NCBI GenBank assembly: GCA_002796125.1
Contig: PCWA01000052.1
Coordinates: 1-34,392, forward strand
DNA: 34,392 bases
Source of the DNA: Candidatus Ghiorseimicrobium undicola
GTDB lineage: Bacteria > Omnitrophota > Gorgyraeia > Ghiorseimicrobiales > Ghiorseimicrobiaceae
Direction of reading: 5' to 3'
Both the position numbers and the translations under genes were made by a program. Under the pieces are notes generated by a model that was not told the DNA's origin, searched no databases, and saw nothing but the letters and a program-made list of their open reading frames with translations. Positions within the stretch are counted from its first letter, which is position 1. Each line of letters starts with the position of its first letter. Positions 13,901 through 34,391 of this stretch are shown here, one piece after another.

Positions 13901-13945
13901 TACAATATATTGTAGGCAAATATAAATATACTACAATTTATTGTG
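13901..13945. promoter_or_regulatory. Tandem NrdR-box-like operators upstream of nrdJ
   Basis: Perfect palindrome TACAATATATTGTA (13901-13914) and near-copy TACAATTTATTGTG (13932-13945), centre-to-centre 31 bp (about 3 helical turns). Confidence 0.65.
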
Positions 13946-15005
13946 CTTTGCCGATCAACCTGTCATTAAGCCTGGCTGATATTTCCACACATAAACTATT
14001 TATTTTCTCAGCCAGGGCTATATCTAAAGTGCCGCATCCGCAGCTTGGGGTAACCATGATTTTATCAATAGCGGCATGCCTTTGCATTGCCTGGGAGAGA
14101 CGGCGCAGTAATTCGCCGGATTCTCCCTCTGTGGCTGCCTCCGCATTATTGGGGACAATGCCGAATGCCAAGATGCCGCCTCGGTTTAAAAATTTATTTA
14201 ATTCTTCTCCGTAAAGAAACAAATTATCCATATAGCCGTAAGCGTCAAAATTAAGAATATCCAAATTCGTAGATAATACCAGCGACCAGTCCGTATTGGC
14301 ACAGCAATGTATGCCGCAAGTCGCGCCCTCTACATGAGCGGCATCAATAACCTCATTAAGGCAATTTATCACATCTTCTTTCTTGAGCGTGAAAAAACTT
14401 GAGCCGAAAGAAACCAAATATGGCTCATCTATAAAAATTATAGTTTTGAGTTTTGGGTTGTGGGTCCTGAGTTTTCGTATTTGCCATCTTGTTTTCATGG
14501 CTAAAAATTTAAGCAAAACCTCCCTTAATTCAGGATTATAAATTATCGGCTGGCCCGCATCAGTCAACAGCATCATCCCTAAAGTAATTGGGCCTACTGT
14601 CTGGCCTTTTATTAGGGACACATCCTGTTTTTCAGAAAAATAGGATGTGTCCCTATTTTTTAAAGCATCTACCAAAGCATATAGGCCAGAGGCGTATTCA
14701 GGCGATATGGCGAAATAATCTAGGCCGTCATTCAGATAATGCTGCAGGCAATCTTCAAGCTCTGAGGAAAAATCTTTTCTTCCGGTATCAACAAATATTT
14801 TTTTATCTTTTTGATTAACTGCTATGCCGGGAAACTTTTCCGAAAATTGAACCGTCATCTGTTCAAAGAAACTCTTTTTCGGCAGCTGAGGCCAAAAGAC
14901 AATATTTTGCCTAAAACATGTGAAGACATGTTCAACTGCTTGACGCTCATCAAGATAAGGAAGGCTTCCTATGCCGGTAGCTAATGTTTTATCCAGGGAA
15001 AACAT
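13938..15005 (-). CDS. MetE/UROD-superfamily (cobalamin-independent methionine synthase C-terminal-like) protein
   Basis: ATGIGSLPYLDERQAVEHVF, LIKGQTVGPITLG, FIDEPYLVSFGSSF, CGIHCCANTDW, TPSCGCGTLD motifs. Confidence 0.8.
   Translation of the reverse strand: MFSLDKTLATGIGSLPYLDERQAVEHVFTCFRQNIVFWPQLPKKSFFEQMTVQFSEKFPGIAVNQKDKKIFVDTGRKDFSSELEDCLQHYLNDGLDYFAISPEYASGLYALVDALKNRDTSYFSEKQDVSLIKGQTVGPITLGMMLLTDAGQPIIYNPELREVLLKFLAMKTRWQIRKLRTHNPKLKTIIFIDEPYLVSFGSSFFTLKKEDVINCLNEVIDAAHVEGATCGIHCCANTDWSLVLSTNLDILNFDAYGYMDNLFLYGEELNKFLNRGGILAFGIVPNNAEAATEGESGELLRRLSQAMQRHAAIDKIMVTPSCGCGTLDIALAEKINSLCVEISARLNDRLIGKAQ
14443..14477. repeat. Heptanucleotide degenerate tandem array inside CDS
   Basis: gttttga|gttttgg|gttgtgg|gtcctga|gttttcg: five 7-nt units, encoding RKLRTHNPKLKT on the minus strand. 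Confidence 0.7.
14613..14655. repeat. 43-nt near-perfect hairpin element inside CDS
   Basis: TAGGGACACATCCT g TTTTT cag AAAAA t AGGATGTGTCCCTA: 14-bp perfect arms plus 5-bp inner arms. Confidence 0.9.
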
Positions 15006-20027: not shown

Positions 20028-20114
20028 GGTTACGTAGCTGGAAACGCCTGTCGGTAATCGTAAACCGTAAAAAACGATAAACGAAAAACAAATTACGATT
20101 CAAGCTACGTAACC
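20028..20114. repeat. Heptanucleotide-rich segment bounded by a 12-bp perfect inverted repeat (intergenic)
   Basis: GGTTACGTAGCT (20028-20039) and AGCTACGTAACC (20103-20114) flank cggtaat|cgtaaac|cgtaaaa|aacgata|aacgaaa|aacaaat|tacgatt (20052-20100). Confidence 0.7.
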
Positions 20115-21331: not shown

Positions 21332-21400
21332 TACGCGCTATATGCTATGCGTCCGCCTTTGGCGAGACCTCGTCCCTGCAGGACGGGCTATACGCTATTT
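21332..21400. repeat. Compound repeat: heptamer-like tacgcgc|tatatgc|tatgcgt interrupted by TCCGCC..GCGAGACCTCG element
   Basis: Heptamers on both sides (ctatacg|ctatttt at right) flank TCCGCCTTTGGCGAGACCTCGTCCCTGCAGGACG. The latter is shared in part with 32639-32671. Confidence 0.55.
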
Positions 21401-23779
21401 TTTTCTCCACATTTCTTTATACAAATAATACCCTTTTCTTAAATGGCGAAGATACGGGCTCATTTTACCATCGCCCTGCCCGGCTATCCCAAGCCATTCT
21501 TCATACATAAATCCGTCAGGAAAAGGCCCTGCCCACAGGCGCCTGGCATCATGCAAAGACGGCTCATAGGCTTTCCACCATTCATCAAGCCATTCAAATA
21601 CTACCCCGCCCAGCGAATTGCCATACCCCGTAAAACCAGCTGAATTATTCATAATATCACCCCAAGCGCCTCTATGATAATCAGCCTGTGCCTCTTCCCC
21701 GTCCTCTAAGGGCCGCCCCGTCAGATAAGCGGCACAACCATACTCTGTTATGAAAGCCGGTTTTTTTGTTTCATCATATACCGCCTGCCAAAAGTCTACA
21801 AAACCGTAATTACCGCGATAGGAATTTGCGGCAAAGATATCAACATCAGGACAAAATTTAGCGAATAAATCCAAATACAGCGTGTCTCCGCTGGCAATGG
21901 CTACGGGGTGGTTCTTGTCTATTTTCTTTATTTCGATAGCTACTTCGTTAACAAACTTAAAGAAACTTTCCGGGTCCTTATCGGCATTGCATGCTACGCC
22001 GTATACATTCTCATTGCCCAGCAGCCAGATTAATATATACGGCTCATCTTTAAATTCTTTTACCATGTTCTTTACCGATTCAAGCATATTCTTTTTATGC
22101 TCCGGGTTCGCATAATCCGTGCCTTCATACCAGATGGCACCCGAACCTAAAGCGTATTTACCCAAAAAATCACCCATAATAACCCGAATCCCGTAATTCG
22201 CGTATAAATCGCGCAATAATTCTTTATTAATGCCGAACGGCTGATGATAAACCCTTATTGTATTTACGCCCATCTCATTCATTAAAGCAAAATCACCTGT
22301 AGCAGGCTCGTTTTTATCCTGTTGATTATTAGAATTTTTATCTACAAAAGCGTCATATGGGCCGTCTATCTTTCCATTACCGTTAAAATCATATTCCATC
22401 CAGCTGGTTAATGTCTGATTATCCGGGCTTTGGCCTGTTTTCACCGGTGAATATGTTATACCTTTAATAATGTATGGTTTATTGTTTACGCGTAACTGCC
22501 ATTGATTATTGACAAATTTAACAAGCTTGATATCACCTTCCCCGATTATGGTATCTATCTTTTTAAGCTCGCGGCGTTTTAAAAACCTTTCCTTTATTTT
22601 GCTCAAATTCTCTATCCAGGGAACAACCTTGCGCAATTTCCCCGGATCGGCTATAACAATATCATTTTTTATATCGGCATCAAAACCATTGACTACCCTC
22701 ATCTTAACATCTTCAAGTTTTATGCCCAGCCGGGGATATTTTTCTGTCAAATATTTTATTTTGTAAAGCGCCGCCTGCCCTACATACCACGGCGTATGCC
22801 AATATGTCCAGCCGTAGGCATCCGGAAAATGCACTAAAATCGCGTAATATGCTTTTATCGCGTGTTTAATATATCCGGCCTTTTCCAAAATAAGGGCGGT
22901 ATAAAAAAGCTTAACCGGTACCGGCTCAGGAGCAAAAGCCCATCTGAAAAACGCGGCTTCTATATCCGGGCTGTGTACTAAATCCCAGTGTGAATCCGCC
23001 AGCCTTCCCTCTTTCTTGACTATGCTAAATCTCGGATTCCAGCGCACGCTTGTGGTATTAGGGTATATCCCTTCACCTGTCGCGGCGGATAAACCCTCCT
23101 GGTCATCTATTACATACTTGTAATCTTTTGTACCCCTCTTTATAAACCTGCCGTATTTTTCATAATCAACTATTTCTTCTTTTCCAAAATCATGTAATGT
23201 TAGTTTTGTAGCCGGCTTTAGCACAAAGGGCTCAGGTGTATCTTTATCTTCCGGCTTTTTGCCGTGCTGGTTAATCTTCTTTACTGAATCCCGGCTTTTC
23301 TCGGCCAAAGAATAAAACCAACCCCTGGGATCCCAGGCATGGCTATAAGGATATTCCGCGATAATGATATTGAATGTTTTTTTTGCCTCTTCAAACTTCT
23401 CCTGCTCGAAATAAACTTCACCCTGTATAAAATAACTGGTTGCCACATCATTAAGGATTTGATATTTTTCTTCTTTGCCTGATTGCTGCGCCTGGCTGCT
23501 CAGCTCCGCATGCTGCTTTTTCGCTTGATCTTTAAAACTGTTTATGCATTCTGCTGTATATTTAAATACGGCATCATAGTCTTTTTTTGCCTGCGCCTCC
23601 CTTGCCTTAATGACTAATTGCTTGGAAGACAACCCCTGGGCATAACAGATGGCAGATGGCAGATGGCAGATGGCAGATAAAAAGCCGACAACCAACAACC
23701 AGCGATAAAATAAATGGTTTAAGCTTTGATATCTTGATTTTAAATTATAATTCTGCATTTTAAATTTTACATTTTGCAT
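21395..23779 (-). CDS. Exported TPR-like plus clan GH-A-like glycoside hydrolase with EF-hand-like insert
   Basis: TPR-like N-terminal half; DFNGNGKIDGPYDAFVDKNSNNQQDKNEP; FALMNEMGVNTIRVYHQP; WLLGNENVYG; AFITEYGCAAY; GVVFEWLDEWWK. Confidence 0.78.
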   Translation of the reverse strand: MQNVKFKMQNYNLKSRYQSLNHLFYRWLLVVGFLSAICHLPSAICYAQGLSSKQLVIKAREAQAKKDYDAVFKYTAECINSFKDQAKKQHAELSSQAQQSGKEEKYQILNDVATSYFIQGEVYFEQEKFEEAKKTFNIIIAEYPYSHAWDPRGWFYSLAEKSRDSVKKINQHGKKPEDKDTPEPFVLKPATKLTLHDFGKEEIVDYEKYGRFIKRGTKDYKYVIDDQEGLSAATGEGIYPNTTSVRWNPRFSIVKKEGRLADSHWDLVHSPDIEAAFFRWAFAPEPVPVKLFYTALILEKAGYIKHAIKAYYAILVHFPDAYGWTYWHTPWYVGQAALYKIKYLTEKYPRLGIKLEDVKMRVVNGFDADIKNDIVIADPGKLRKVVPWIENLSKIKERFLKRRELKKIDTIIGEGDIKLVKFVNNQWQLRVNNKPYIIKGITYSPVKTGQSPDNQTLTSWMEYDFNGNGKIDGPYDAFVDKNSNNQQDKNEPATGDFALMNEMGVNTIRVYHQPFGINKELLRDLYANYGIRVIMGDFLGKYALGSGAIWYEGTDYANPEHKKNMLESVKNMVKEFKDEPYILIWLLGNENVYGVACNADKDPESFFKFVNEVAIEIKKIDKNHPVAIASGDTLYLDLFAKFCPDVDIFAANSYRGNYGFVDFWQAVYDETKKPAFITEYGCAAYLTGRPLEDGEEAQADYHRGAWGDIMNNSAGFTGYGNSLGGVVFEWLDEWWKAYEPSLHDARRLWAGPFPDGFMYEEWLGIAGQGDGKMSPYLRHLRKGYYLYKEMWRKK
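23646..23707. repeat. Heptanucleotide array in signal-peptide coding region
   Basis: cagatgg|cagatgg|cagatgg|cagataa|aaagccg|acaacca|acaacca|...; encodes about residues 26-45 (RWLLVVGFLSAICHLPSAIC). Confidence 0.85.
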
Positions 23780-25625: not shown

Positions 25626-26984
25626 TTAATATTGGCGCCTCTTGTTTAATTCTTTTTCTTTGACCTTTTGCACTTCAACGGCAATTTCCGCGGGAGATTT
25701 TTCTCCTATTATAATCGCCTGTATCCCTTTATCGAATGCCTCTATAACAAGCGGAAATTCATGTACCGGCCAAATGTTAGGATGAGTCGTATCCTCCATG
25801 GCTTTGGCAAAACTTGCCAAAACGGGCGTTAACTTCGTAATGCAGTCTTTATTTGCCGGAAGGTTTTTTGTCACCTCGGCCAGATAAGCCTGTTGTTCAT
25901 CATCGCTTAACCACCTTAAAAAATCTATTGTTTCCTGCTTAAATAAAGAGCGCCCGTTTACCAGAAAAGACGAACCCGCGCCTCCCCAGGCTTTCATGAG
26001 AAAATCTCCTTTTGCAGGCGGGAACATCACCCCGTAATCCAAATCGGGATTCATCCCGGCATAGACATTGACGCACCAGGAACCGTTAAAAGCAAAAGCT
26101 GCCCGTTCGTTCGCAAACAGCTGTTCGGCGGTCTTATTAACCATAGTAACTATGCCGTTATATAAAATATTATTATCCGCCATCTCTTTAAATAAATTAA
26201 AGACTGCTATCCATTCTGGATCGGTATAGGGAATTTCGCCTTTAATCGTTTTCATCACCTTTTCTTCGCCCATAATATTAAAAGCATAATTAGAGGCAAA
26301 ACAGTCGATCATCCACATCTCTCCCCACCCTGAAACTAAGCCCTGGACACCGGATTCTTTAAATTTCTCCCCCATGGCCAAAAATTCATCCCATGTTTTC
26401 GGCGGCCTTTTAATGCCTGCGTCTTTAAGCAGCTTTTTGTTATAAAGCATCTGTATATTCATGACATCGAGCGGCACTCCGTAAACCCCCGGCTCTACCT
26501 TAAATTCATTATCCGGCAGAAATTCATTAACTGCTATGGCGCGCGAAAAAAATTTATTCTTCCAGGCGGCATTATCCCTTAACATTTCGCTATCCAGATT
26601 TGCCACGTGCCCTGCGATAACAAACGATGCAAAATCCCTTTTCTCGCCAAGCAACCCGAATATATCCGGAAGCGTTCCTGCCTGCGCCGCCGCCCTTACT
26701 TTCTGAGTATAAGAATCGCTCGGCGCGTATAATTCAAATTTAACTTTTACCCCTGTCTTTTTCTCATAGCGCGCGGCAAGCTCGGCAAAGGCGTCATCTC
26801 TATCGGTCATCCAGTGCCAGGCATTTATCGTAACCGCTGGCTGGATTCTATCCCCTTGCCCTGCGCCGCCTCCGCAACCGGTTAAATTAAAAATTAAAAA
26901 TGTAAAATTAAGAATAAGAAATAAAAATATAAAATTTTTAAATTTTACATTAAAATTATGCATTTTAGATTTTACATTCTGCAT
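25626..26984 (-). CDS. ABC sugar transporter substrate-binding lipoprotein
   Basis: Lipobox NLTGC; VTINAWHWMTDRDDAFAELAARYEKKTGVKVKFELYAPSDSYTQKVRAAAQAGTLPDIFGL is typical of extracellular solute-binding family 1. Confidence 0.93.
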   Translation of the reverse strand: MQNVKSKMHNFNVKFKNFIFLFLILNFTFLIFNLTGCGGGAGQGDRIQPAVTINAWHWMTDRDDAFAELAARYEKKTGVKVKFELYAPSDSYTQKVRAAAQAGTLPDIFGLLGEKRDFASFVIAGHVANLDSEMLRDNAAWKNKFFSRAIAVNEFLPDNEFKVEPGVYGVPLDVMNIQMLYNKKLLKDAGIKRPPKTWDEFLAMGEKFKESGVQGLVSGWGEMWMIDCFASNYAFNIMGEEKVMKTIKGEIPYTDPEWIAVFNLFKEMADNNILYNGIVTMVNKTAEQLFANERAAFAFNGSWCVNVYAGMNPDLDYGVMFPPAKGDFLMKAWGGAGSSFLVNGRSLFKQETIDFLRWLSDDEQQAYLAEVTKNLPANKDCITKLTPVLASFAKAMEDTTHPNIWPVHEFPLVIEAFDKGIQAIIIGEKSPAEIAVEVQKVKEKELNKRRQY

Positions 26985-26985
26985 T
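26881..26985. repeat. A/T-rich heptanucleotide array (15 units, 105 nt) covering the signal peptide of the substrate-binding lipoprotein
   Basis: gttaaat|taaaaat|taaaaat|gtaaaat|taagaat|aagaaat|aaaaata|taaaatt|tttaaat|tttacat|taaaatt|atgcatt|ttagatt|ttacatt|ctgcatt. Confidence 0.85.
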
Positions 26986-29447
26986 TACTGTTTTCCTCCC
27001 ATTGTAACTTTCACCTTATGCACTTTGCCGTCGGAATGCGGCTTAATTAAATTACCGTAAACTATCTCGCCGTCTACATACAGTTCTTTAACGCCTTTTT
27101 CAACTCCTGCTTTATTATCTATTTCTATATCATAAATCGCTCCGCGAAACGGACGCCTGAGAGAACAACTCTTCCAGCTTTTCGGTATGCAGGGGTCTAT
27201 GCGCAGGCCTTCAAAATCGCGCCGCACGCCAAGAAGCCATTCAGTGGCCGCCATAAATGCCCAGCCGCTAGTCCCGGTTATCCAGGTAAACTGCCCCTCT
27301 CCATAACGATAAGGACTCTCCGGGCCCACCAAATATTCCGCGTAAACATAAGGCTCTGCCTTATAACAGTCATAATCCTTCTGTTTATTCGGCATAATTT
27401 TCAGCATAGATTCATAAGCGCAAGTCCCCCGGCCGCTCATGCAATAGGCAACAACCATAAAATGCGCCGCGTGAGCAAATATGGCGGCATTTTCCTTCGT
27501 GCCTTCGGAAAACATGCTTATCCTTCCCAGCTCCGGATGAAACTTCCGATATGCCGGATAAAATAAGGCAAGCCCATGCGGCCCATCCAAATATTTATCT
27601 ACAGATTTAAGTATATTGCTCAGGCGCCTACCCTCTGCCACTTCACTAAGTATAGCCCATGATTGGGTATTTAAAAATATTTTGCCGGCTTCGTAATTTT
27701 TAGTACCGTAAGCGATGCCCTCATCTGTAAAACCCCGCGTATACCATTGGCCATCCCAGCATATTTCGTTTATCCGCTCAGCCATTGTCTTGGCCTTATT
27801 TAAAAATTCATGCGCTTTTTCATTTTTCCCTACAAAACTTGCCAATTCCGCGAAAAATTTTAAAGAACGCACCAATCCCTGGGCAAGCCAAACACTTTCG
27901 CCTTTATGTTTCTTTCCGGCGGCATCTATCGCATCGTTCCAATCGGCATGCCCTATCTTGGGAAGGCCTCTTTCGCCCACATCATTAAAACAATAATTAA
28001 GGTTCTTTTCCAAATGCTCAAATAAAGTCCCCTCTCCATCGATAGTTGGCCCGCCTTTAAAATTAACATCCGTATCCCATCCGTTTAACCATTTGTCCTT
28101 AAGATAAGGCACATACTCAAAAAGAATATCCTTATCTCCCGTTTCCTGAATATATGAACAGACTGTTGCTGTAAGCCATATCTGGTGATCTTTATTCGGC
28201 CTATGCCCTGCCGGGCCTGTTGTATCGGACCAGCCGGGAGCAGAGGTGCCGTCACGGCGGATAAGAGAAGCTATTTGTAAAATCTTTTTTCTTGTTAAGC
28301 CGTGGTTTATCGAAACTATGGCTTCGGAATCTTGGGCTGAATCGCGATACCCCCTGCCGCCTGAGCCCTCATGATAATAAGACGGGGAACGCGACCAGAA
28401 ATTGCATATATAAATCTGGTATTTAACCCAGATGTTTACCATATTATCAAAATCTTTATCCGGGGTCTTGACAACTATATTATCTACTATGCGCTTCTTC
28501 CAAATATTCTTAGTTTCTGCGAGGGCGTATTTGGCGCGCGATAGATCCCTGTATTTTTCTGCAAGTTTAACAGCGTTATTCTGGCCTTCGCACTCACCTA
28601 ATATAATCACAAATTCTTTGCTTTCTTTCGGGGCTATCTTAAAGGCATGCTTAAAACAGGCAATGCCGTCTTCTCCTGAACAAAGAACGCTATTTTTGAA
28701 TTTAGCTTCCAGTATTGCTTCAGGCCTCTCTTCCGTATTATAGCGGCCCAGAAAATCTCCTTTCCGCGTAGCAAAACCCTTCACATCCAGGCTTGAGGCA
28801 AAAAAAGCGTAATTTTTAAACTCTTTTATATTCATCCCCTGCCAAAACGCGGTTTTCCAGCCAAAAATAAGCTTATGCGCCTTGTCATACCACATGCGAT
28901 TGTAGAGATTCATGATATTTCGGTATCTTAATTCCTCCTGATAATCTCCCACAAGCCATTCTATGTAAGGATAAAGCTCAAGATTCTTCTCTTTATTAGA
29001 TTCATTAGTCAGTGAAACAAGCCAAATTTCACACTCATCATCAGACGGGACAAAATAAGTAATTTCAGACTTAACACCGCTGTGTTTAGTGGTGATAACC
29101 GTATATCCCAAGCCATGGCGCGCCTCAAAAAAATCCGGCTTAACCCGCAATGGCTGATAAGTCAGCGACCAAATTTTTTGACTCTTTGACTCTCTGGCTC
29201 TTTGACTCTTAATTTCCTTGGCATATATATACCGCCCCGGCCTGTCAAAATTCTTATAATCAGGCGCCCAGCGCAAAATTCTGTCGGTACGGCAATCACG
29301 GTAAAAACTATAACCGCCTGCGGTATGAGATATTATCGCGCAATATTTTTCGTTGGTAAGATAATTAATCCACGGGGTAGGCAAAACGGGATTTGTAATT
29401 ATGAATTCCAGGCCATCTTTGGAAAAATGTCCGTATTTATTTCTCAT
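26985..29447 (-). CDS. GH94-like (glycosyltransferase 36) disaccharide/oligosaccharide phosphorylase
   Basis: RHGLGYTVI, GSGGRGYRDSAQD, EGTLFEHLEKNLNYCFNDVGERGLPKIGHADWNDAID, GTKENAAIFAHAAHFMVVAYC, GTSGWAFMAATEWLLGVRRDFEGLRIDPCIPKSW. Confidence 0.92.
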   Translation of the reverse strand: MRNKYGHFSKDGLEFIITNPVLPTPWINYLTNEKYCAIISHTAGGYSFYRDCRTDRILRWAPDYKNFDRPGRYIYAKEIKSQRARESKSQKIWSLTYQPLRVKPDFFEARHGLGYTVITTKHSGVKSEITYFVPSDDECEIWLVSLTNESNKEKNLELYPYIEWLVGDYQEELRYRNIMNLYNRMWYDKAHKLIFGWKTAFWQGMNIKEFKNYAFFASSLDVKGFATRKGDFLGRYNTEERPEAILEAKFKNSVLCSGEDGIACFKHAFKIAPKESKEFVIILGECEGQNNAVKLAEKYRDLSRAKYALAETKNIWKKRIVDNIVVKTPDKDFDNMVNIWVKYQIYICNFWSRSPSYYHEGSGGRGYRDSAQDSEAIVSINHGLTRKKILQIASLIRRDGTSAPGWSDTTGPAGHRPNKDHQIWLTATVCSYIQETGDKDILFEYVPYLKDKWLNGWDTDVNFKGGPTIDGEGTLFEHLEKNLNYCFNDVGERGLPKIGHADWNDAIDAAGKKHKGESVWLAQGLVRSLKFFAELASFVGKNEKAHEFLNKAKTMAERINEICWDGQWYTRGFTDEGIAYGTKNYEAGKIFLNTQSWAILSEVAEGRRLSNILKSVDKYLDGPHGLALFYPAYRKFHPELGRISMFSEGTKENAAIFAHAAHFMVVAYCMSGRGTCAYESMLKIMPNKQKDYDCYKAEPYVYAEYLVGPESPYRYGEGQFTWITGTSGWAFMAATEWLLGVRRDFEGLRIDPCIPKSWKSCSLRRPFRGAIYDIEIDNKAGVEKGVKELYVDGEIVYGNLIKPHSDGKVHKVKVTMGGKQ
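29178..29209. repeat. 8-nt degenerate tandem array inside the GH94-like CDS
   Basis: ttgactct|ttgactct|ctggctct|ttgactct; encodes KSQRARESKSQ in-frame. Confidence 0.8.
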
Positions 29448-30482: not shown

Positions 30483-33400
30483 TTACCCTCCTCTCTCTTT
30501 AAGAAAATCATCGTAATTGCCTTTGGAAAATTTGATTTTATACTTATTGCCTGATTTTTTATAGGCCATATACGATTTATACGGATCAACATAACCAACT
30601 AATAAATATCCGCCTTCAGCCAGATTACCTAGCAGAATATGTATATTTTGCCCGATATTTTTAAAGTATTCATTGGGAATCAACAAATTAAAACATCTTA
30701 TTATATTGGCTTTTTGCGGAATAGTTTTAAACGCGTCTTCCTGCGCGAGTATTATATTTTTCGGGTATGAATTTATTAATTCAGATAAACCAGGTACTAT
30801 GGCGCGCCGCGTACTTATGTGTTCGTTTTCAATAATGCTGCCGTATCCGCCTGCGGCATCAAATGCCCTGCGGAAAATAGTTTCTATTTTCTGAGGCATA
30901 TCCTCAAGCTGCGGGAATATCGCTCCATTGCCCCTGATAACATTTATCCCCAAAATATGCATGGGATTAGGCCTTATCTGGAGAATTCTGCCAAAGGCAT
31001 CATAAACAGCGATGTTGCCTTCTATATCTTTTACAATATAAAAATATATGGTAATATCGGAGGCTATCAGTTTTATTTTTTTTCTGAAAAATTTTGCTCC
31101 ATAACGCGCGATTATTTTTTCTATTAACGCTTCGGTAGTAATGCCGCTGGCTATCGCCTCATCGCGAATAATTATTTCTTCGCGGTCTTTGAATTCTTCA
31201 ATATACCCAAGTATTATTTCATCAATTTCGCCAAGCCAATATCTGTTGGTAATCTTACCTATTTCATTTTTAGTCTTATAGGCATTCCTTATGATGGATT
31301 TAATTATCTCTTCTATCTCTAAAACTTTTCTTTTTAGTCCTCTACCTGCAGCTTCTTTCCATAATCCGCTTAAAACCGGCACAAGCATCAAATCTTCGGA
31401 AGCGATTAATAATGAAACACCTTTCCCCGTTAACAGCTTTTCTATCAGTTCTTTTTGATCGCTATATAACAATGGATAATATTCGCTTTCACTCTTTATC
31501 GATAGATTTCTCGCTGTATTTGTTTTTCGTGGCCGCGCGTAGGGCTTTATTTTCTTCCTCGGCTCTTCGATAAACACCGCCTGCGCTCCAGCCGCTATTA
31601 AGCCCTGTTTTCTTTTATCAAATATTTGATGTTTTTCAAAAAAGCCCGCGATAACGCCGGCCTTATTTCTTATTTCCGGAGTTAATTCATCAACGCTGGC
31701 ATCGCGTATATACTTATCCATATAATAATCTATCTCTTTTATTCTTTCTTTATTGGATAAGCCTGCCAGCCGGAACTTAATAATCAGCTCATTAATGCAA
31801 TCGGGGATATTTGTTAGCGGAGAAGATGCTTTCTTCTTGGCTATAATCATAATATCCGTTAAAGTTATAATAATACTATCCTCCTTCTCTCTGAATTTAA
31901 CCGCTTCTTTAATTTCGCTATTTGCCTTATGCAAATATTCTTCTACTCTATTTTTAAAACGGCATTCACCTAAAAGTTCTGTAATATTTAAATCATATGC
32001 GTGCGTGCCGATTTTTTCAATTTCAAAGCCTGCCTTTAACAGCATTTCTTCAAATTGTGGCCGCGTATAATAAGCCATATCATCATGGCTCCTCTGTTTA
32101 TTAAAACCCAATATAAAATCATTAACTACTTGACTTTCGCTTGCTAAATCATCCATTATTATTAAGCGCCCGTTTTTATTTAAAATTTTGCTGGCGCATA
32201 TAAATCCCAGCAGGGGATCGGCTAAGTGATGAACCACGCCGCGCTTAATTGCAAGATTAAACTCATTCTTATAGAATAACGGCGCGGCCTCAATACGGCG
32301 AGGCGTAAAGGATAGGCGCGAATCATTTAATATTTTTTGCGCCTTGACAAAATACCTAAAATCTTTATCCAGCCACACGGCTTTTTTTATATTACCGCTT
32401 CTTAACAAATGCCTCAAGAATTCGCCGCTTCCCGCGCCTAAGTCGATTACTTTACCACCTACATCAACATTCCTATTTAGCCACTCCATATCATGTTTTA
32501 ATCCTTCATAGTAAAGTTCGTCTGACGGAGATTTTTTTATGATCGGCGAGGCGGAGGATTTAGGCTCCAGGCTACAGGCTGCAGGCTGCATACTTCCAAA
32601 CTTGCGGCTTGAAACTTGAAGCCTGAAGCTTAAAACTATCCGCCCAAATCGGAGATTTGAGCGAGACCTCGCTCGCCTCGGCTGAAGCCATTGGCTAAGC
32701 CAGGCCAAACTCTCCTGAATTTGGCGGGCCGGAGAGGACACGGAAATTTTTCTCGCCTTGTCCCGCAACACGAGCGATTCTTCTTCTGTCCGTTTCGTTG
32801 AAGTAAAAGAATACTTCTCTTTAACTTCTTCAATATATTTTTTCATTTTTCCTTGATTCCAAGTAAAATATGTTGCATAGAACATTCGCAGAAAAGAAAA
32901 CTTCTTCAGCCAAGGACAATGAGTATTCATTGGATCCATTCCAATCCTAAGATAGAACCGATCCGGGTCCCCATACCTGCCCTTTCTCGGTAAATTTGAC
33001 TCTAAAACTAATCTAATATCCGAAGCCGCGGTATCTGAACTAAAAAATAGAATCGGCTCCGTTATGGCTGCCATCAATAACGAACCGGCCCCTTTAAAAC
33101 GCGGGATTTCCTTGCCGTTATGTATACGTATTTTTTCATCATGGCGAGTCATGATAAAAAGGCATTCAATGATTTTATTATCTAAGATGGGGGCTTTCGG
33201 GAACCACTCCTCCATAAGCCAAGATAAAGCTGCTATTCTATAGGTCGCCACGCCTTCAATCCCTCTACATGCCGACTCAACAACCAAATTGATATAATCC
33301 GGATTTTTTAAATAAATGCGCTCTTTGAACAATGACAAACTATCCGGCAACGCGGACATGTCTTCTCTAGCGAGAAGCCGCACAAAAGCCGGTATTCCGT

Positions 33401-34391
33401 TATTCGTTTTCTGATCCAATAATTGCCCTGAAAATATAGAATCAATTATGATATTTTTTGTTTTCCTTATATAGCTATCCACCGGCGAAGCGGAGGATTT
33501 TTTACGCCAAATTAAAATTATAGGTCCGTGCAAAGCTGAAGTTATTTCAGTATTCTCATCTTCAACTATCTCAAGGCGAAGCTCGAAATTTAAGTTTATA
33601 AGGCTGGCGGGTCTTTTCTTCCACCCTGCCCATTCTTTATTCCAGATTGAGGCTATTTTCTCTAATGCTTTATTCCTGCCATAAAATTGCATATCAACAT
33701 CTGACTCTTCATCAGGCGTAATACGCCCCTTGACGGAATCAAAACTTGGTTGATCCTTGGCGTAACTACCCAATAGGCATACTCTATAAATGCCTTGCAG
33801 CTCTTCTTTTTTGATAACTTCTTCAACAAGATCCATAACTGCTTTTCTAACTTGAGCTATTTTCGGTTCAACCGGCGAGGAAACAAAACTTGCATCATCC
33901 AGCATTTGGTTATCTGATATATTGATTTTTTCTACCGAGAGAAGGTCTTTTTTAATTAATGCGCTGACAAATTCTAATTCCTCTTCACTACATTTTTCGT
34001 AATCCTGATACCACTTGCTTAACCTTGCTGCTTCGTCAATGGATAATACCAATACTTTAATATGCCCGCTCATAATGTAATCCGCGACATAAACCGGCGA
34101 GAATATATCAACAATAAATTTGATTTTACTTCTAGGCAATGTGACTAAAAGATAGTAATGTATGCCGGAATTCATCTTTTTTTGAACTAAATCTACTTCT
34201 AAATCCGGCCTGTGAAGAAGTATCCATGCCAAAAGAGCATTCATCATGCATGAACCAGCAAGAGATTTTACGGGTTCGACATTCTGCCCTGCTTCATATG
34301 AAACCAGGTCAAATAGTTTATCCCGAATCGGCGATGCGGAATGTTTAGTTTTAAGTAACTCATCTGCTCTTCTTGAAAACTTCCGCTGCTT
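30483..34391 (-). CDS. Large multidomain protein (NTase-like, SAM methyltransferase, second methyltransferase-like region), partial at right edge
   Basis: NTase-like LLGSYAKD...ESDVDMQF; methyltransferase KVIDLGAGSGEFLRHLLRSGNIKKAVWLDKD. The frame is open upstream of the annotated ATG (34247) to the window end (KQRKFSRRADELLKTKHSASPIRDKLFDLVSYEAGQNVEPVKSLAGSCMM). Confidence 0.8.
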   Translation of the reverse strand, partial: KQRKFSRRADELLKTKHSASPIRDKLFDLVSYEAGQNVEPVKSLAGSCMMNALLAWILLHRPDLEVDLVQKKMNSGIHYYLLVTLPRSKIKFIVDIFSPVYVADYIMSGHIKVLVLSIDEAARLSKWYQDYEKCSEEELEFVSALIKKDLLSVEKINISDNQMLDDASFVSSPVEPKIAQVRKAVMDLVEEVIKKEELQGIYRVCLLGSYAKDQPSFDSVKGRITPDEESDVDMQFYGRNKALEKIASIWNKEWAGWKKRPASLINLNFELRLEIVEDENTEITSALHGPIILIWRKKSSASPVDSYIRKTKNIIIDSIFSGQLLDQKTNNGIPAFVRLLAREDMSALPDSLSLFKERIYLKNPDYINLVVESACRGIEGVATYRIAALSWLMEEWFPKAPILDNKIIECLFIMTRHDEKIRIHNGKEIPRFKGAGSLLMAAITEPILFFSSDTAASDIRLVLESNLPRKGRYGDPDRFYLRIGMDPMNTHCPWLKKFSFLRMFYATYFTWNQGKMKKYIEEVKEKYSFTSTKRTEEESLVLRDKARKISVSSPARQIQESLAWLSQWLQPRRARSRSNLRFGRIVLSFRLQVSSRKFGSMQPAACSLEPKSSASPIIKKSPSDELYYEGLKHDMEWLNRNVDVGGKVIDLGAGSGEFLRHLLRSGNIKKAVWLDKDFRYFVKAQKILNDSRLSFTPRRIEAAPLFYKNEFNLAIKRGVVHHLADPLLGFICASKILNKNGRLIIMDDLASESQVVNDFILGFNKQRSHDDMAYYTRPQFEEMLLKAGFEIEKIGTHAYDLNITELLGECRFKNRVEEYLHKANSEIKEAVKFREKEDSIIITLTDIMIIAKKKASSPLTNIPDCINELIIKFRLAGLSNKERIKEIDYYMDKYIRDASVDELTPEIRNKAGVIAGFFEKHQIFDKRKQGLIAAGAQAVFIEEPRKKIKPYARPRKTNTARNLSIKSESEYYPLLYSDQKELIEKLLTGKGVSLLIASEDLMLVPVLSGLWKEAAGRGLKRKVLEIEEIIKSIIRNAYKTKNEIGKITNRYWLGEIDEIILGYIEEFKDREEIIIRDEAIASGITTEALIEKIIARYGAKFFRKKIKLIASDITIYFYIVKDIEGNIAVYDAFGRILQIRPNPMHILGINVIRGNGAIFPQLEDMPQKIETIFRRAFDAAGGYGSIIENEHISTRRAIVPGLSELINSYPKNIILAQEDAFKTIPQKANIIRCFNLLIPNEYFKNIGQNIHILLGNLAEGGYLLVGYVDPYKSYMAYKKSGNKYKIKFSKGNYDDFLKERGG
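32562..32638. repeat. Heptanucleotide array inside the large multidomain CDS (11 units)
   Basis: aggctcc|aggctac|aggctgc|aggctgc|atacttc|caaactt|gcggctt|gaaactt|gaagcct|gaagctt|aaaacta. Confidence 0.85.
32639..32703. repeat. Cluster of palindromes adjoining the heptamer array inside the large CDS
   Basis: CAAATC-GGA-GATTTG, GAGCGAG-AC-CTCGCTC and GGCT..AGCC arms in TCCGCCCAAATCGGAGATTTGAGCGAGACCTCGCTCGCCTCGGCTGAAGCCATTGGCTAAGCC. Confidence 0.75.

Follow-up and report, generated by a model that had tools for sequence, protein, structure and literature searches.

The signal peptide of an ABC sugar-type solute-binding lipoprotein in an Omnitrophota genome is encoded by a degenerate array of seven-nucleotide units, which forms two inverted arms and runs from the start codon up to the lipobox. 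From sequence comparisons we consider it probable that inverted heptamer arrays, which evolve fast and are tolerated where a leader is later removed from the mature protein, have repeatedly become the leader itself. This would be a natural case of export signals rebuilt again and again from simple repeat DNA, one in which the origin of signal peptides becomes testable across species. The window, i.e. the whole stretch of 34,392 nucleotides that was analysed (G000:C107:1-34392), belongs to G000, an Omnitrophota MAG of 1.83 Mb in 115 contigs. Genes and exported proteins were called with simple custom scripts, and all statistics are exploratory, the tests having been devised after the pattern was seen.

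The lipoprotein gene (25626-26984, minus strand; Pfam SBP_bac_8 7e-40, SBP_bac_1 1e-31) follows a gene for a GH94-type phosphorylase, assigned from Pfam and the ORF table (26985-29447, minus strand), and itself lies upstream of two permease genes and a glycoside hydrolase. Because its ATG at 26984 directly adjoins the TAA of the GH94-type gene (26987-26985), and because a Shine-Dalgarno-like GGGAGG lies within the end of that gene (27000-26995, minus strand), the start is well supported. No later start, of the kind that the earlier note had considered, fits better. The N-terminus reads as a lipoprotein signal peptide: the start is rich in K, the hydrophobic core has a mean Kyte-Doolittle value of 2.45, and an LTGC lipobox (26874-26885, minus strand; pattern [LVI][ASTVI][GAS]C) stands in front of the SBP domain, its Cys37 (26876-26874) being conserved in the orthologues. 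An Rfam search of the window gave no non-coding RNA match.

Codons 1-35 (26881-26984, minus strand), which translate to MQNVKSKMHNFNVKFKNFIFLFLILNFTFLIFNLT, have a lag-7 identity of 0.649. Dinucleotide shuffles reach 0.399±0.047, and none of 2000 was as high; among lags 4 to 24, seven is the best. The periodicity that the earlier note had proposed to check by autocorrelation and Tandem Repeats Finder (TRF) is thus present, and so is the span that it gave. Its picture of 15 units with one consensus, however, gives way to two degenerate, inverted arms with indels, which TRF reports at 26884-26934 (7.3 copies, 77% matches) and 26936-26986 (7.4 copies, 64%). The first arm (26935-26984, minus strand, delimited by TRF and by a split in purine content) is A-rich, begins at the ATG and encodes the basic and polar n-region with ATGTAAA-type units. 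The second arm (26881-26934, minus strand, supported by TRF and the arm-swap test described below) is T-rich, with ATTTTTA/ATTTTAC-type units; it encodes the hydrophobic core and is roughly the reverse complement of the first. Its unit holds a stop in one phase, which is avoided through the degenerate spacing. The last codon of the array is that of the lipobox Thr. An mRNA hairpin as the main function of this locus was considered and rejected (z=-1.3 against dinucleotide shuffles).

Could a hydrophobic, lysine-rich leader written in AT-rich codons simply look seven-periodic by chance? Two results leave room for this: permuting synonymous codons inside the array segment only, which is short and offers too few alternatives to be informative, does not separate the array from its null (p=0.35), and the T-rich half by itself is weak, with p=0.006 turning into 0.15 once the choice of lag is allowed for. 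Against this, nulls based on base composition, codon order and genome usage all reject chance. Indeed, the array exceeds sequences with codon order shuffled within halves (0.409±0.042) with z=5.5, and synonymous recodings at genome codon usage (0.503±0.042) with z=3.3. In addition, relatives have leaders of this kind that are encoded by perfect heptamers rich in GC. The comparative data largely refute the chance explanation, which we regard as scarcely credible.

When the mature lipoprotein was used as query, matches were found in 78 of 99 relatives. The mature parts of the three same-family orthologues (L002, L003 and L004) are 78-81% identical, while their signal peptides are unrelated; the leaders thus differ although both the gene before them and the mature protein after them are conserved. 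L002 is built from AAAATCC and TTTGTCA-type units and L003 from AAAACTC/CAACTTT-type units, both significantly heptameric; L004 has only a short TATTTTC run over part of the core (p=0.19 across the whole signal peptide). Strong periodicity (z 3.7-4.9) is seen in the signal peptides of L001, L002 and L003 and in that of L036, which is more distantly related. The mature segments of the 33 orthologues tested show no 7-nt periodicity. Outside the family most orthologues have ordinary signal peptides, and because periodicity is absent from most of the 33, the ordinary signal peptide is the common state.

A second exported protein of the window repeats this behaviour. The glycoside-hydrolase-like gene at 21395-23779 (minus strand; Pfam Glyco_hydro_2_C), whose N-terminus reads ATGCAAAATGTAAAATTTAAAATGCAG, also has a heptameric signal peptide, with ATGCAAA/ATGTAAA-type units over codons 1-15 for the n-region (23736-23779, minus strand; TRF and sequence) and a perfect CCATCTG array of 4.7 copies (23646-23678, minus strand; TRF 100% matches) for the core (LSAICHLPSAIC). 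The orthologue in G001 carries ACAGGTT and then CTGTCCC, the one in G003 AAATTCG and then CTTCGCC, and the one in G002 an ordinary signal peptide. The replacement of leaders in these two window genes supports the suggestion of the earlier note that a repeat of non-coding type can give rise to an export signal or reshape one. The lipoprotein unit family is indeed also found between genes elsewhere in the genome.

Leader repeats with a unit that is not a multiple of three are known from the opa genes of Neisseria, whose leader sequence contains CTCTT repeats (PMC3745409). There, too, a short tandem repeat encodes part of a leader peptide; the opa repeat, however, is a single fixed, near-perfect pentamer, phase-variable and confined to one gene family (PMC3745409), whereas here we see diverse, degenerate heptamers that often form two inverted arms, occur in many genes unrelated to one another and have their units replaced between species. 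One may ask whether the arrays are contingency loci of the same kind, in which a change of unit number shifts the frame and switches the protein on or off. The unit of seven would permit this, and the perfect CCATCTG array would qualify as a near-perfect non-triplet leader repeat of the opa type. The lipoprotein array would not: with 64-77% matches and indels it is too degenerate for efficient slippage, and the frame is open in all four family orthologues. We therefore judge phase variation highly improbable.

Period 7 is not confined to these two genes. The genome figures given here come from samples, and in the 382-kb sample of G000 we counted 28 period-7 arrays (one N-run artefact left out), compared with at most 5 for any other period from 4 to 13 and 0-2 in shuffles; period 14 doubles period 7. 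The same-family genomes G001 and G003 resemble G000 in this, with 13.6 and 10.6 arrays per 100 kb, and the others range from 7.0 (G026) to 0 (G068); the density in G056 is underestimated because its sample contains 28 kb of N. In 50 kb of E. coli no period-7 array was found. The arrays sit between genes, at 5' ends, some of them of non-exported proteins, and in internal loops; leaders are hence not their sole hosts. Further examples in the window are an intergenic array of CGTAAAA/CGATAAA-type units (20050-20108, no strand assigned; periodicity statistics), arrays within the large ORF 30483-34247 (32552-32637, minus strand; TRF and array scan) and an array in a loop at codons 176-191 (14431-14476, minus strand; array scan and orthologue comparison) of the 355-aa ORF 13938-15005. 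This last loop holds differing heptamers in G000, G001, G003 and G033, and farther relatives have slightly shorter ordinary loops. The 355-aa protein has no Pfam match; it occurs in 43 of 99 relatives, and a FIDEPYL motif adjoining its heptamer loop is conserved.

Mostly intergenic heptameric repeats have been described from Xanthomonas and Nostoc (PMC4692102) and, with the unit TAACTGA, from Beggiatoaceae (PMC4679880). Our arrays share with them the seven-nucleotide unit, the genome-wide occurrence, the variability among relatives and, with Xanthomonas, the inverted pairs (PMC4692102, PMC4679880); the over-representation of period 7 above other periods, characteristic of the Xanthomonas/Nostoc type, is likewise found in G000. 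Those systems, however, have one dominant, mostly intergenic unit, and here many units are used markedly in coding 5' ends. When we looked for a single dominant, G-rich and mainly intergenic unit, we found diverse units with the highest coverage at exported gene starts. Even within one genome the units are very diverse and follow no common consensus. Near-identical units nevertheless reach 7.6% within a genome versus 3.7% between genomes (about 2.6% for composition-shuffled units), an excess that suggests some spread between loci or a shared bias.

This excess, together with the inverted arms and the Y1 transposases that are common in the class, would fit a mobile palindromic element, similar to a Rickettsia palindromic element or a MITE, that was inserted and captured in frame. 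Rickettsia palindromic elements are indeed palindromic repeats that are translated in frame inside unrelated genes, but they are about 150 bp long and form defined families (review PMC10969869), whereas here there is only the 7-nt periodicity and no fixed element, consensus or ends. Array density is also not tracked by the presence of Y1 transposases, and we rejected a Y1/REP-type transposase as the driver, as it is found in array-rich and array-poor relatives alike. A mobile element is accordingly an improbable source.

The placement of the arrays is uneven. At the starts of exported genes (first 45 codons) they take up 3.5% of the sequence, at other gene starts 0.5%; the figures for intergenic DNA and for gene bodies are 1.4% and 0.17%. 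Across five array-bearing genomes, an array within the first 50 codons was found in 24 of 253 exported genes but in only 6 of the 783 remaining ones (p=1e-10), an enrichment that is partly circular, as the export call is based on hydropathy and T-rich arrays raise it. Support independent of this call comes from the many array leaders that finish where a lipobox or AxA-like site can be recognised, and from two pseudopilin-like leaders in G003 (MIYSLLYAIRYTLNAKRRRGFTLME and MTAGLLLYAIRYTLYAKRRSGFTLVE), TACGCTA arrays that halt just before the GFTL processing site. Coding arrays are also free of stops more often on the sense strand (47 of 52) than on the antisense strand (30 of 52; p=2.5e-4). Such avoidance is expected if selection filters the units, for tandem copies of seven nucleotides run through all three frames. 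None of 62 intergenic arrays would serve as a ready-made signal peptide, which is below the shuffled null of 2.6%; capture thus needs stop-free units. A role of the intergenic arrays as terminators was rejected as well, as they are not enriched between convergent genes (4/58 convergent versus 47/729 gaps).

All of this might be purely passive: slippage would occur everywhere and its products last at any unconstrained site, signal peptides would merely be the most permissive coding sites, the arms would match through quasi-palindrome mutation, and the repeat itself would add nothing. The arrays in loops, N-termini and between genes agree with such a view, as do the turnover at the same loop of ORF 13938-15005 in several species and the avoidance of stops on the sense strand, which resembles a filter. 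Plain tolerance would, however, not predict a higher coverage at exported starts (3.5%, a partly circular figure) than between genes (1.4%). We hold the purely passive explanation to be rather unlikely.

Many arrays are two-armed with inverted arms. For ten signal-peptide arrays, picked for having arrays, we compared purine-rich with pyrimidine-rich arms, with row and column effects removed: cognate arms pair better than swaps between genes (p=4e-5, still 1.5e-4 when the strongest locus is left out). Applied to all predicted exported genes, the test gives a weak overall effect (p=0.08 in G000, 0.09 in G003); array genes alone give p=0.013 and 0.014, respectively, and non-array genes show no effect. 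Some array leaders lack matching arms. Purine-rich arms read K, N, Q, E and R and pyrimidine-rich arms F, L, I and S, in the order of n-region and then h-region. The layout supplies a physical reason for leader formation: as the two arms of an inverted repeat are complementary, one yields the basic and the other the hydrophobic half of a leader. Several intergenic inverted arrays also fold far better than half-shuffles. Among the sampled stretches, G001:39834-39906 and G003:103930-104017 form long hairpins (z -6 and -11 versus half-shuffles). The hairpin-forming intergenic inverted arrays are not enriched between convergent genes.

Going one step further, one could imagine that a process in Omnitrophota actively writes and overwrites inverted 7-nt arrays, keeps their arms complementary and so supplies many genes, time and again, with new signal peptides and with cleaved leaders of other kinds. 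Such a process would be a recurrent leader source because an array that runs from purine-rich to pyrimidine-rich reads basic and then hydrophobic. We offer this only tentatively, as a possibility on the doubtful side. SbcD, a subunit of the hairpin nuclease, passes the cut-off in none of 99 relatives, array-poor ones included, and in 8 of 14 control genomes; its non-detection is at most a permissive background for inverted repeats.

Our preferred explanation, that the arrays repeatedly became the leader, would work as follows. Heptamer arrays would arise and turn over at many sites in this Omnitrophota family and persist where sequence may vary, foremost in leader peptides, which the mature protein no longer contains. 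In the lipoprotein gene the inverted pair of arms at the 5' end would itself be the signal peptide, the purine-rich arm giving K, N, Q and M and the pyrimidine-rich arm, which reaches the lipobox, F, L and I. As units turn over between species, the signal peptide sequence would then be swapped, with export presumably kept. Slippage and hairpin-templated copying between the arms most likely write the arrays, with some spread between loci. The writing process, as well as translation, function and cleavage of the leaders in the cell, is what we infer here. With opa leaders and intergenic heptamers as known precedents, the new aspect is the diverse, often inverted heptamer leaders in many genes. 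In the open-access literature, outside which most subscription journals lie, we found no reports of repeat-encoded leaders or signal peptides, or of repeats, in Omnitrophota.

For annotation, caution is advised, as N-termini, loops and start sites in array-bearing Omnitrophota genomes may be repeat-derived. By sequence reading, in-frame heptamer arrays also occupy loop-like positions in apparent housekeeping enzymes, namely ArgRS, HisF, a glutamate synthase subunit and HemB (G000:C48:61858-61909, C82:85825-85871, C34:40445-40486 and C34:15777-15820). Beside the window, our ORF script finds a frame that stays open across an entire 20-kb stretch, for about 6,650 codons (G000:C107 ~34440-54390, L041), a gene for a giant protein.
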